DNA of 41,894 nt, from the IMG/VR virus record IMGVR_UViG_3300047548_001285, positions 1 through 41,894 of that record; one strand, 5' to 3'. Position numbers and translations under genes: made by a program. Below the pieces are notes generated by a model. The model searched no databases, was not told the origin of the DNA, and saw only the letters and a list, made by a program, of their open reading frames with translations. Source of the stretch: a virus. Shown here one piece after another: positions 6,304-28,098 of this stretch (position 1 is the stretch's first letter; each line of letters starts with the position of its first letter).

Positions 6304-6379
6304 TGCGGGGTAGAGCAGAAGCAGCTCGCTTGGCTCATAACCAAGAGGTCGTGGTGTGCAATTCCCACCCCCGCAACCA
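6304..6379 (+). tRNA. Initiator-like tRNA-Met(CAT)
   Basis: Acceptor TGCGGGG pairs with CCCCGCA, discriminator A, encoded CCA, anticodon CAT at 6336-6338. The GGGGTAGAGCAG start, AGCTCG D-arm, GGCTCATAACC loop and AGGTCGT variable region closely follow bacterial tRNA-fMet. Differences: T1-A72 is paired rather than mismatched, the anticodon stem has two rather than three inner GC pairs, and the T-loop reads TGTGCAATT instead of TTCAAAT. Initiator identity is probable, not certain. Confidence 0.75.
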
Positions 6380-8723: not shown

Positions 8724-8751
8724 TTGCAAATAAAATAAAAGACTGTATATT
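8724..8751 (+). promoter_or_regulatory. Sigma-70-type promoter of the giant RNA
   Basis: TTGCAA and TATATT separated by 16 bases in an AT-rich stretch. The predicted start is near 8758, just before the first stem of the giant RNA. Confidence 0.65.
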
Positions 8752-9256
8752 AAGAAAATAGACGCTGTAGCAAAAACGCAAGTTAAAGCAACAGCGCAGA
8801 GTTTGGGGGTTTAGCCTCGTTAGGATAAGCACAGCGATGTGCCCAAAGCTGCAAAGCCTACATAGCAGCGCATAGCAATATGTCCATCTAAACAAGCCTG
8901 AGTTAAGTTTACACGGGGTGAAATTCCCCTAAGGTAAACTCCGCCCGTAGGAAGGCGGTAAGCAGTAAGTTACTGCTATATGTCCGAAAGGATAAGTCTG
9001 GAGCCGATCGGTGAGGACGAATTGGGTTGGCGCCCAAGCATGTAGCACGCCAAAGTAACGAGTGCTTAATACTAACAGGTAGGTACCTAGTCAGACTGTT
9101 CGCGCAGAAAGGCAAAGTACCATTGCAAGAGTTGGAGGTGAAAGCCCGAGACTTAAAGCAATGCTTAGTAGCCCGCAAGGCAAAAGGCGAGAGGGTGTGT
9201 TGTATTTCTTATCTAACAAGATAGGAAGCGACTGGAGCAGCACATCACAGTAGGTT

Positions 9257-9328
9257 GCAAACATAGCTCATTTGGTAGAGCAATCGCATTTCAAGCGATC
9301 GGTAGTTGGTTCGATTCCAATTGTTGAT
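9257..9328 (+). tRNA. tRNA-Glu(TTC)-like domain inside the giant RNA
   Basis: D-arm GCTC/GAGC, anticodon stem ATCGC/GCGAT with loop ATTTCAA (TTC at 9290-9292) and T-arm GTTGG/CCAAT are all present. The acceptor has only four good pairs and no CCA. Instead, TTGCAA 9255-9260 can pair with TTGCAA 9338-9343, and GGAGCAG 9234-9240 with CTGCTCC 9347-9353, placing the domain on a long helix of the host RNA. Confidence 0.7.
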
Positions 9329-9683
9329 TATACAAAATTGCAAAGACTGCTCCGGTTGAATGTGTAAGGTGTCAAATGCTTAGGCCGCAAGGTAACTAAG
9401 CCTAACGAAACCCGCAAGGTCTAGTTAGTTCATGAAGGAAGTTTCGTAACCTCTTAGCGGAGGTGAATAGCTCGCAAGGCTAACGGGATAGATAGCGTGG
9501 AGTAGCATTCAACGACGAGTCTAATGCCTGACTCTAAAAACGGCGACACTGCTAGGATACTTGTTCACAAATGGCCTCCGTGCCCGGAACGAGTGGATGT
9601 CGGATTAAGCTAACTCGCAAGGTTAGGTCGTACGGTCCGAAGACTTAGCACTGTATGGGTAATCTCACCATACGCTAAAACAA

Positions 9684-9706
9684 AGGCGCTTAGTGCGCCT
9701 TTTTTA
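9684..9706 (+). terminator. Rho-independent terminator of the giant RNA
   Basis: AGGCGC 9684-9689 pairs with GCGCCT 9695-9700 around a five-base loop, followed by T to 9705. A GTATGG/CCATAC hairpin lies just upstream. Confidence 0.9.
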
Positions 9707-9721
9707 GTCTATAATTACAAT

Positions 9722-10810
9722 ATGAGCAACTTTTATTGTCCTAGAATAAAGAATGGTATTGCATTTACTCCTAACCGTGATTATGATGTATGCGGAGTAA
9801 GAGACCTCAATAACTCTAGCAAGCTAGGTATTAGTTCTACTAGTTTAAATGATTTCTTATCTAGCGACTATCGCAAAAATCTACTAGAGACTGCTAACAA
9901 AGGCGAATGGCCAAAAGGCTGCGAGGGCTGTTTTTGGTTAGAGAATATTTCTTTACAAAGCCCTCGCCAACAAGAGATTGCTTTAGAAAAACAAAACGGT
10001 ACACGGCCTTTAGTCCACTTTAATAGTGGATCTATCTGTGATAGCGATTGCATTATGTGTGGTCCAAGATGGAGCACTAGCATTGCTAACAGACTAAAAA
10101 AGCATCCTGCACCAAGCGATTCATATTTTACGCTGGGCAATGATGGTATAGATTTACCATCTGATAAAACTTCCCTTGAAAATTTAAAAAACGCTATTGC
10201 TATTTCCAAAAGATTAAAGGTAGTTGGGGGCGAACCTCTACTCGACAAAAAGCTATGGAAATTCTTAGACGAAGTTACGCAAGACAATAATAACTTTGAG
10301 TTTATCATTTCATCAAATGGTAACAACTATCCAAGCAAATACCAACTTGGTATCTTACAAAAGTTTGCCAAGGTCAATTTTATTTTTAGTATTGATGGCA
10401 CTGGTCCAACGTTTGAATGGATTAGACAAAACTTAAATTACAAAGCAGTAATCAAACACTATTTAAAAATAAAAGCATTAAGCAACGTAACATGTCATGT
10501 GACTGCGGTAGTACAAGCACACAATGTATTAAACTTAAAAAGCATGATGGATAGTTTTAAAACTAATATTGGTTTTAATATGCTAACACACCCTGCACTC
10601 CTATCAATTAGAAATGCCCCAAGATGGACGCTTGAACGGGCATTAGAAGAAACAAAAGGTCACTCTGATCTACAAACAATGTTAATGCTTTCACTCAAAG
10701 CAGGACCAACACATGATTTAGAAAGTTTGATTAAGCATACTAAGTATCTAAACGGGCATAGAACTCACTATTTTGACACAGACACTTGGAGTGTCCAAAA
10801 AAAGTCTTGA
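9722..10810 (+). CDS. Radical SAM protein, twitch-type
   Basis: The 362-residue product has the cluster motif ICDSDCIMCG (C106, C110, C113), a VVGGEPLLDKKLW SAM-binding segment near 205-217 and IDGT near 265. An N-terminal Cys pair (CEGC, 67-70) followed by SPRQQE matches the twitch-domain radical SAM family often annotated in marine T4-like phages; a similar protein lies at 27127. The substrate is unknown. TATAAT ends six bases before the ATG, so the message may be leaderless. It directly follows the giant RNA terminator. Confidence 0.82.
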   Translation: MSNFYCPRIKNGIAFTPNRDYDVCGVRDLNNSSKLGISSTSLNDFLSSDYRKNLLETANKGEWPKGCEGCFWLENISLQSPRQQEIALEKQNGTRPLVHFNSGSICDSDCIMCGPRWSTSIANRLKKHPAPSDSYFTLGNDGIDLPSDKTSLENLKNAIAISKRLKVVGGEPLLDKKLWKFLDEVTQDNNNFEFIISSNGNNYPSKYQLGILQKFAKVNFIFSIDGTGPTFEWIRQNLNYKAVIKHYLKIKALSNVTCHVTAVVQAHNVLNLKSMMDSFKTNIGFNMLTHPALLSIRNAPRWTLERALEETKGHSDLQTMLMLSLKAGPTHDLESLIKHTKYLNGHRTHYFDTDTWSVQKKS

Positions 10811-27126: not shown

Positions 27127-28098
27127 ATGTCGTCTGATAAACTAAAATTCAATAACCCGTTTTGTTCTTATCCATTTTTACATCAGCACTTAGATACAAG
27201 AAAACAATCTAAGCTTTGCTGTTTTTCAGAAACGGATATGCAAAGCGGGTTTAATTTTAACTCTAACGAATACAAAGAAGTTAGAGATATGATGCTTAAT
27301 GGTGATTGGTCAGTCCATTGCCAAGGATGCCAATCTTTAGAGCAACGCAAGCTAATAAGTCCTAGACAAAAAGCATTGCGTGACGAGAATACAGAATTGC
27401 TACAGCATCAAGTGGATAAGCATCTAGCAGGGGAACTGTTAGACCCATATCAGTATGACTTGCGTATTAGCAATCTATGCAATCTAGCTTGCATAATGTG
27501 TGGTCCAAAAAGCAGTTCAACAATTGCAAAGAACTTAGGTATAGATAATGAATTTTTATCCTATGAGCCCGATGTGTATATCAATCCTAAAGCCAATTAT
27601 ATGTATCTAGCAGGCGGGGAACCATTTTTAATCAAAAAGTTTTCTGCGCTGCTTAATAAGATTGAAAACACTAATTGCAAAGTTGTTATCAACACAAATG
27701 GAACTATAGTTACAGATCATTTGATGAAAGCATTAGAACGCTTTCATAACGTTAACATGACTGTTAGCATTGACGGTTATATGGACTTAAACAGTAAAAT
27801 TAGGATTGGTAGTAATTGGGAAGCTATAGATAAAAATTTAATCATTTTTAAAGATGCGGGTTTTTCATTACACATTAATACTGTTGTTCAAAAAGACAAC
27901 ATTAATGAACTATTTGAATTAGGAACATTTTTAGAAACTGTGCCTATCAACAAATGGACACTATCTGAACTTACTGTTCCAGAAGAACTTAGATACATAC
28001 AAAACATTAATAAGGAAAGAGTAGAAAGGTTAATGACGTTAAATTTAGTCAAAACAAATCCAGAAACAATCTATCTGCTAAATAGTATACTAAAATGA
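27127..28098 (+). CDS. Radical SAM protein, twitch-type
   Basis: The 323-residue product has the cluster motif [10 protein letters not shown] (C118, C122, C125), [13 protein letters not shown] and [10 protein letters not shown]-terminal Cys pairs (KLCCF; CQGC 65-68) precede [11 protein letters not shown]. It matches the gene at 9722 in layout, so the two are paralogues. A CTAAATA late element ends six bases before the ATG. Its last codon overlaps the IF-1 start, so the two may be made together. Substrate unknown. Confidence 0.82.

Follow-up and report, generated by a model that had tools for sequence, protein, structure and literature searches.

A truncated tRNA-like domain with a fast-changing anticodon loop in the linker of phage GOLLD RNAs, a possible bait for enzymes that read anticodons

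The stretch of DNA analysed here, referred to as the window, is a 41,894-base IMG/VR virus record with baseplate and tail profile matches. On its forward strand, positions 9194..9671 hold a GOLLD RNA, identified by an Rfam covariance-model match (RF02032) that scores 175.7 bits (gathering score 150) and covers model positions 1-416 in full. This is the RNA that a preliminary description of the window had called a giant RNA and taken as the host of a tRNA-like domain. The Rfam-defined part is the 3' region, and the accessible text of PMC12286853 describes GOLLDs as often longer than 800 nt and less well conserved towards the 5' end, and their function as unknown. Given these sizes and the alignment with the nearest relative (L277, 75% identity to window positions 8740-8900 and 80% over 9164-9555), the forward-strand stretch 8760..9193 probably represents the less conserved 5' part of the transcript. 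A terminator-like hairpin followed by TTTAGTCTAT lies 3' of the RNA (9682..9702, forward strand), located by a scan for terminator-like sites that returned 2 against 1.6 expected from shuffles. A phage or prophage setting near tRNAs is a trait of GOLLDs, and the window element shares it, being surrounded by a tRNA array (27 ARAGORN tRNA calls in the window).

Other features of the locus were recorded alongside. Two radical-SAM-like genes (phrog_14086) are present, one directly after the GOLLD RNA (9722-10810) and one at 27127-28098, and a search for kin of the window through this neighbour returned one distant relative only. Two odd tRNAs without CCA were also seen, one at 6304-6376 with an Rfam match and no ARAGORN call, and one at 2115-2188 with a weak tRNA-Tyr call.

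The linker of the GOLLD RNA is filled by a tRNA-Glu(TTC)-like cloverleaf at 9257..9329 on the forward strand, called by ARAGORN and matched by the Rfam tRNA model (RF00005, 51.2 bits). It is enclosed by a closing helix of 10 pairs between ACTGGAGCAG (9231..9240) and CTGCTCCGGT (9347..9356). Inward of this helix come AGCACATC and a GTAGGTT-type flank, then a 4-bp acceptor stump in which AACA (positions 4-7 of the acceptor, 9260..9263) pairs with TGTT (9322..9325), followed by the three arms. The D arm spans 9266..9281 (stem 9266-9269/9278-9281) with the GG-containing loop ATTTGGTA, the anticodon arm ATCGC-ATTTCAA-GCGAT spans 9283..9299 with the anticodon TTC at 9290-9292 (ARAGORN and arm layout), and the T arm GTTGG-TTCGATT-CCAAT spans 9305..9321; covariation supports the D and T arms, the latter together with its layout. 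An A-rich strand leads from the cloverleaf to GCAAAGACTG, all of these elements being read on the forward strand. The complete set of D, anticodon (TTC) and T arms noted earlier was thus recovered, as in a canonical tRNA gene. The 7-bp acceptor stem of such a gene is missing, since in cloverleaf register only five of seven pairs form (pair 1, a G-U, and pairs 4-7) while pairs 2 and 3 are mismatched, and this agrees with the earlier remark that the acceptor is broken. CCA is likewise absent after the domain, as had been stated, whereas 25 of the 27 listed free-standing tRNAs of the window end in it, although a missing encoded CCA is by itself compatible with enzymatic addition. The fold of 9229-9357 is better than that of all 200 dinucleotide shuffles (z -3.10). 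An origin of the domain by copying of one of the window's free tRNAs was considered and rejected, the best identity being 0.59.

The preliminary description placed the domain on two stacked helices, and these fared differently. The outer one, GGAGCAG/CTGCTCC, holds and is longer than described, being part of the 10-pair closing helix. The inner one, in which TTGCAA at 9255..9260 would pair with TTGCAA at 9338..9343 (forward strand), appears in the predicted fold of the window and does not extend to homologues as a general feature. Across 71 representative linkers, the best inner helix had a mean length of 3.56, hardly longer than the 3.44 obtained with shuffled partners (sd 0.07, maximum of 200 shuffles 3.65), and it was rejected as a general linker feature. 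An inner helix may nevertheless exist in a subset of linkers, as the 5' motif TTCGC is accompanied by GCGAA in 12 of 14 cases, compared with 0 of 56 for GCAAA.

GOLLD homologues were gathered by pattern scans of IMG/VR and of genomes and by blastn against named phages, and all loci submitted to Rfam passed the RF02032 gathering score (L002-L006 with the window, 11/11 and 5/5). Of 165 flank matches, 34 were set aside because they lacked a recognised anchor or had fewer than 6 pairs in the closing helix, and restoring L292, L320 and L325 from these gave 111 distinct linkers, of which 104, among the matches listed, hold a cloverleaf in normal order. The remaining linkers hold a permuted tRNA (L299 and L320), D and anticodon arms only (L281) or no tRNA part (L314, L318, L323 and L325). 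As a control, 1031 free-standing tRNAs were taken from the same loci as the linkers. The cloverleaf finder demands pairing of the D, anticodon and T stems, which raises these by design, and leaves acceptor pairing unscored. Two of the scans, one of them with at least 80 matches, required a T arm and are biased in this respect; a fair rate of cloverleaves therefore comes only from the 5'-flank pattern, which ignores linker content, favours one GOLLD group and gave at least 80 matches. Among the 80 of its matches that were listed, 3 are not GOLLD (L288, L305 and L319), and the 77 GOLLDs comprise 71 with a cloverleaf, 2 permuted, 2 without a T arm and 2 with none; 68 of the 71 were found by program and three by eye (L284, L285 and L290, the last two cut by a contig end). 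The sequence GTGTAATCTCAGCCT was tried as an unbiased GOLLD probe and rejected as a denominator because most of the 73 stretches that it returned lack a GOLLD-like layout.

Comparison of the linker cloverleaves with the free tRNAs reveals a specific loss at the acceptor end. In the 104 linker cloverleaves, the fraction with a formed pair at acceptor positions 1 to 7 is 0.51, 0.42, 0.53, 0.92, 0.92, 0.93 and 0.98, respectively; in the free tRNAs of the same loci it is 0.89-0.94 (n=1031). With shuffled partners, 47.9, 37.9 and 45.4 of 104 would form pairs 1-3, so the 53, 44 and 55 observed are at chance, while pairs 4-7 form in 96-102 of 104 as opposed to 43-72 with shuffled partners. CCA is encoded in four of the 104 (L193, L280, L293 and L322) versus 934 of the 1031 free tRNAs. 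Because pairs 4-7 are kept and pairs 1-3 are at chance, the graft point is constant, and the linker tRNA can be described as severed after acceptor pair 3 and joined there to GOLLD sequence. The rest of the tRNA body is retained: the elbow features are found in nearly all linker cloverleaves (D-loop GG in 98/104, T-loop TTC in 101/104), and of the 94 linker loops of seven nucleotides, 89 have U33 and 89 have a purine at position 37, the corresponding counts in free tRNAs being 982 and 976 of 1010. Anticodon loops of other lengths occur in 10/104 linker cloverleaves (6, 8 or 9 nt) and in 21/1031 free tRNAs.

Without an outer acceptor and CCA, the domain should be neither released nor charged. 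The anatomy gives good support to a maintained tRNA mimic built into GOLLD and not a tRNA destined for release, its non-release being what we infer from that anatomy. That a working tRNA gene instead lies within GOLLD and is excised from it seems very improbable to us, even though gene finders call the window domain, one of the four homologues with CCA (L193) has 7/7 acceptor pairs, and the two permuted linkers described below have a complete acceptor with CCA. The window copy itself has two of its seven pairs broken, one of the remaining five being a G-U, and no CCA; the outer pairs of its homologues are at chance; and the window encodes a free-standing, full-length tRNA-Glu(TTC) at 1619-1693 (ARAGORN), which makes the linker domain redundant for decoding. 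In addition, a Northern of a Mycobacterium GOLLD with a pseudo-tRNA inside is reported without expression of the latter in the accessible part of PMC6582537. The proposal that this is no working tRNA but a graft on a helix of the giant RNA is therefore upheld by the chance-level outer pairs and the rarity of CCA across the linkers.

Whether the linker is kept as a structure was assessed by covariation in an alignment (A1) of 70 sequences, the window and representatives, over 28 pairs. Standard pairs occupy 95.7% of the cells, and changes on both sides of a pair were found in 479 cells, far above the 125.8 in shuffles and the at most 84 in slid-partner controls. All five stems show such changes, with 6 pairs in the closing helix, 4/4 in the acceptor stump, 4/4 in the D stem, 5/5 in the anticodon stem and 3/5 in the T stem. 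Since pairing of the D, anticodon and T stems was required by the finder, the independent evidence lies in the closing helix, whose 10 pairs are formed in 97.4% of cells over the 70 sequences, and in the acceptor stump. The comparison of homologues proposed earlier thus finds both the enclosing helix and the domain kept with compensating changes, and the absence of that helix from homologues, which was to count against the graft, did not occur.

Two GOLLDs (L299, 198.8 bits; L320, 188.5 bits) carry a circularly permuted tRNA in the linker (L299:4748-4865 and L320:7596-7710), and a further contig, L395, has a linker identical to that of L299. The order in these is T arm, acceptor 3' strand, ACCA, a short loop, acceptor 5' strand (7/7 pairs), D arm and anticodon arm, and ARAGORN calls both L299 and L320 once they are rotated to normal order and neither when unrotated. 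As the permuted graft runs through the variable arm, conservation seems to concern the tRNA body rather than the way in which it is tethered. At the other extreme, L314, L318 and L323 have linkers of 38-50 nt without a tRNA and still match the whole Rfam model. These bear on the idea that the cloverleaf is a structural spacer which merely closes the linker and aids folding or assembly of the cage, an explanation that we regard as quite unlikely: the constant graft on the closing helix would suit it, as would the published GOLLD structure, in which the linker is inside and disordered according to the accessible text of PMC12286853, but short tRNA-free linkers evidently suffice for a full model match, and the behaviour of the anticodon loop described below would be left unexplained.

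Other GOLLDs without a linker cloverleaf have a hairpin of 5 bp with a 7-nt loop (L413 and L414, from DSS3P8 and V10, and L416, from Xanthomonas phage X1). The hairpins read TTTGA-TTTAGGA-TCAAA in DSS3P8 and V10, TTTGA-CGGTTAA-TCAAA in X1 and ATAGA-ATTGGGA-TCTAT in L281. Hairpins with such a loop arose in 43-58 of 1000 dinucleotide shuffles (L281, DSS3P8 and V10), any 5-bp/7-nt hairpin arose in 341 of 2000 mononucleotide shuffles of X1, and no anticodon-arm-like hairpin was found in the linkers of L314, L318, L323 and L325. In view of these shuffle rates and the four linkers lacking one, the lone hairpins were regarded as suggestive of anticodon arms and given no weight.

The anticodon loop behaves differently from the remainder of the domain when closely related linkers are compared. 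Among cloverleaves at least 95% identical outside the loop, the anticodon differs in 11/26 linker pairs versus 0/96 free pairs, and at 90-95% identity in 12/24 linker versus 5/163 free pairs. With the Caulobacter phages left out, several anticodons occur within 6/13 linker clusters versus 3/112 free clusters at the 90% threshold or above, and within 4/10 versus 0/73 at 95%, and several base differences within a cluster may be accounted for by a single block replacement. For linker pairs with 90% or more identity, the fraction of differing sites is 0.20 in the loop, 0.12-0.18 in the acceptor strands and 0.014-0.067 elsewhere in the cloverleaf body, where position 26 alone stands out at 0.156. 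On these comparisons, the anticodon loop is the fastest-changing part within the cloverleaf body. Diversifying change of the loop on a kept scaffold, as expected of an anticodon-nuclease decoy, is seen here as a pattern and may reflect selection.

This behaviour is further illustrated by the Caulobacter phages, for which 13 of the 18 matched records were compared. Their cloverleaves are identical outside the anticodon loop, while the loops read CGTCCTA in seven, CTCTTAA in five and CATCCTA in one, and phiCbK and CcrMagneto carry different natural loop forms. Between the CTCTTAA and CGTCCTA groups, compared with phiCbK, 20-26 of about 1413 bases differ, 5 of them consecutively in the loop. No site that co-segregates with the loop, as would be expected of loop-GOLLD pairing, was found in the Rfam-defined part of GOLLD in the substitution lists of these phages. 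Outside that part, co-segregation was seen at three sites, two of them upstream and one downstream, and such pairing appears improbable. The window and L277 have the D arm and anticodon stem in common, with loops ATTTCAA and GCTTGAA, respectively.

Replacement can also involve the entire insert. Over 2000 flanking bases, L095 and L344 show about one difference, yet the cloverleaf bodies in their linkers share only 67% identity, which points to a recent and precise replacement of the tRNA cassette in the GOLLD linker. Of the 20 pairs whose flanks reach 90% identity, 4 have linker bodies less than 75% alike, and in the other 16 the body is kept. Such exchange is at the core of the main rival to a bait function, namely that the cloverleaf is a tolerated passenger without a function of its own, the cage interior taking any insert and recombining tRNA arrays supplying and refreshing the tRNAs. 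The position of GOLLD in a tRNA array, the whole-cassette replacements, and the linkers without a tRNA or, as in L281, without a T arm would all fit this view. We nevertheless consider it rather unlikely, as a cage open to any insert sits poorly with 71 cloverleaves in the 77 GOLLDs among the matches listed and with few carrying anything else. Fresh captures would also have CCA, which only 4/104 do; a relaxed insert would not change fastest at its anticodon loop; and both the constant graft point and the arms kept by compensating changes speak against mere tolerance.

The linker loops are further distinguished by which anticodons they carry. Among the 94 linker loops of seven nucleotides, Asn GTT (27), Lys TTT (14), Lys CTT (11) and Arg TCT (8) lead, and these four together account for 35/64 linker representatives versus 102/1010 free tRNAs, an enrichment to be read as indicative only since the linker sequences are related and P values for anticodon bias are overstated. 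According to the accessible text of PMC12409363, the PARIS nuclease AriB cleaves Lys(UUU) and Thr(UGU), and Asn(GUU) less efficiently, and LshCas13a is described as cutting, with a preference for U-rich anticodons (PMC11042736, in the accessible portion). Phage tRNAs, in turn, are reported to counter tRNA-attacking defences as working replacements (PMC11555353, likewise in part).

Taking these observations together, the linker domain may serve as bait, directed at host enzymes that read the anticodon loop, for example anticodon nucleases; we rate this reading at somewhat under an even chance. An uncharged tRNA body would present its anticodon arm to a host enzyme, for instance an anticodon nuclease of a phage-defence system, and an arms race with that enzyme would drive the fast change of the loop. 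The reading is drawn from the mimic being uncharged, the tRNA body being kept and the loop changing fastest, as well as from the enriched linker anticodons, of which Lys(UUU) and Asn(GUU) are AriB targets, and from the published cage, whose linked tRNAs are drawn as exposed on opening. The fuller picture, an RNA cage armed with an uncharged, truncated tRNA bait whose loop or whole cassette is swapped between near-identical phages, tracking the enzymes that attack or read anticodons, is held more tentatively still. Several points weigh against a bait. The kept U33 and purine 37 also fit captured tRNAs that have not yet drifted, loops of 6, 8 and 9 nt are odd for an exact mimic, and Thr(UGU), a main AriB target, is not enriched (3/94 linkers versus 41/1010 free tRNAs). 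Some GOLLD linkers (L314, L318 and L323) do without a tRNA, and access to a bait enclosed in the cage would be difficult if the position seen in the published structure carries over to this member.

An alternative partner would be the translation machinery, with the tRNA body bringing GOLLD to a tRNA site of the ribosome or to a protein that handles tRNAs, so as to sequester or steer it during lysis. The preliminary description had likewise suggested that the mimic may dock a tRNA-binding protein. The retained elbow would suit such docking, and GOLLD reportedly binds ribosomes in pull-downs (PMC12286853, citing its ref. 45, in the accessible text). We judge it unlikely, as docking has no need for a fast-changing anticodon loop, which points to a reader of the loop rather than to a generic elbow binder, and the difficulty of access within a closed cage applies here as well. 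A tRNA without its acceptor end also loses its contacts with EF-Tu and the peptidyl-transferase centre.

The linker tRNA in itself is not new. GOLLD RNA with a tRNA in its linker is said to go back to Weinberg et al. 2009. GOLLDs of this kind have been published (PMC12286853 and PMC6582537, in the accessible texts), the latter citing the 2009 GOLLD discovery paper for the predicted tRNA, and the accessible text of PMC9569102 adds nothing further on tRNA in GOLLD. The cryo-EM structure of another GOLLD, env-38 only, is a 14-mer cage with the linker inside, in which 'covalently linked tRNAs' are drawn as exposed on cage opening (Kretsch et al. 2025, PMC12286853, accessible portion). The RNA family, the phage and tRNA-array setting and the position in the linker are the same as here; the insert is treated there as a phage-encoded tRNA, and the accessible text makes no mention of a loss of acceptor pairs 1-3 and CCA or of fast loop change. 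A cargo tRNA should keep its acceptor, and the loss seen in the survey does not match the expectation for cargo. The Mycobacterium pseudo-tRNA is likewise a degenerate tRNA within a GOLLD in a tRNA cluster, but it is a single case (PMC6582537, accessible part), whereas the anatomy reported here is shared over many phage GOLLDs. The largely open-access literature searched showed no account of GOLLDs with a lost acceptor or a hypervariable anticodon loop, and the shared linker anatomy and loop behaviour appear undescribed in the searchable literature. What is new is the comparison of 104 distinct, non-permuted cloverleaves from linkers with 1031 free tRNAs, and the acceptor loss and loop change give the loose notion of a 'tRNA near a giant RNA' a form that can be tested.

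Beyond GOLLD, tRNA-like modules are known in other RNAs. The bacterial Y RNA YrlA holds one within a non-coding RNA and has a known protein partner, and bacterial Y RNAs are said, by the title of Chen 2014, to 'mimic tRNAs'; the YrlA module and the GOLLD domain are both tRNA-like modules in another non-coding RNA, and the RNAs themselves differ. tmRNA (RF00023, RF01849 and RF04321) also has a tRNA-like part in a larger RNA. It lies beside GOLLD in several relatives, by alpha-type or permuted models (L002, L003, L005, L006, L299, L413, L414 and L417), and in the window itself the Rfam scan gave no match to any tmRNA family. A chargeable acceptor end is retained in tmRNA, whereas the GOLLD linker domain, including that of the window, is without one. 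A further parallel is offered by the phage tRNAs that evade defences such as PARIS/AriB (PMC12409363, accessible text) or retron-Eco7 and PrrC (PMC11555353, accessible text). These match the attacked tRNAs, with Lys and Asn recurring as in the GOLLD linkers, but they are free and working, while the GOLLD domain is unchargeable and part of a large RNA. If the bait reading is true, it would connect RNA cages with tRNA-targeting phage defence.
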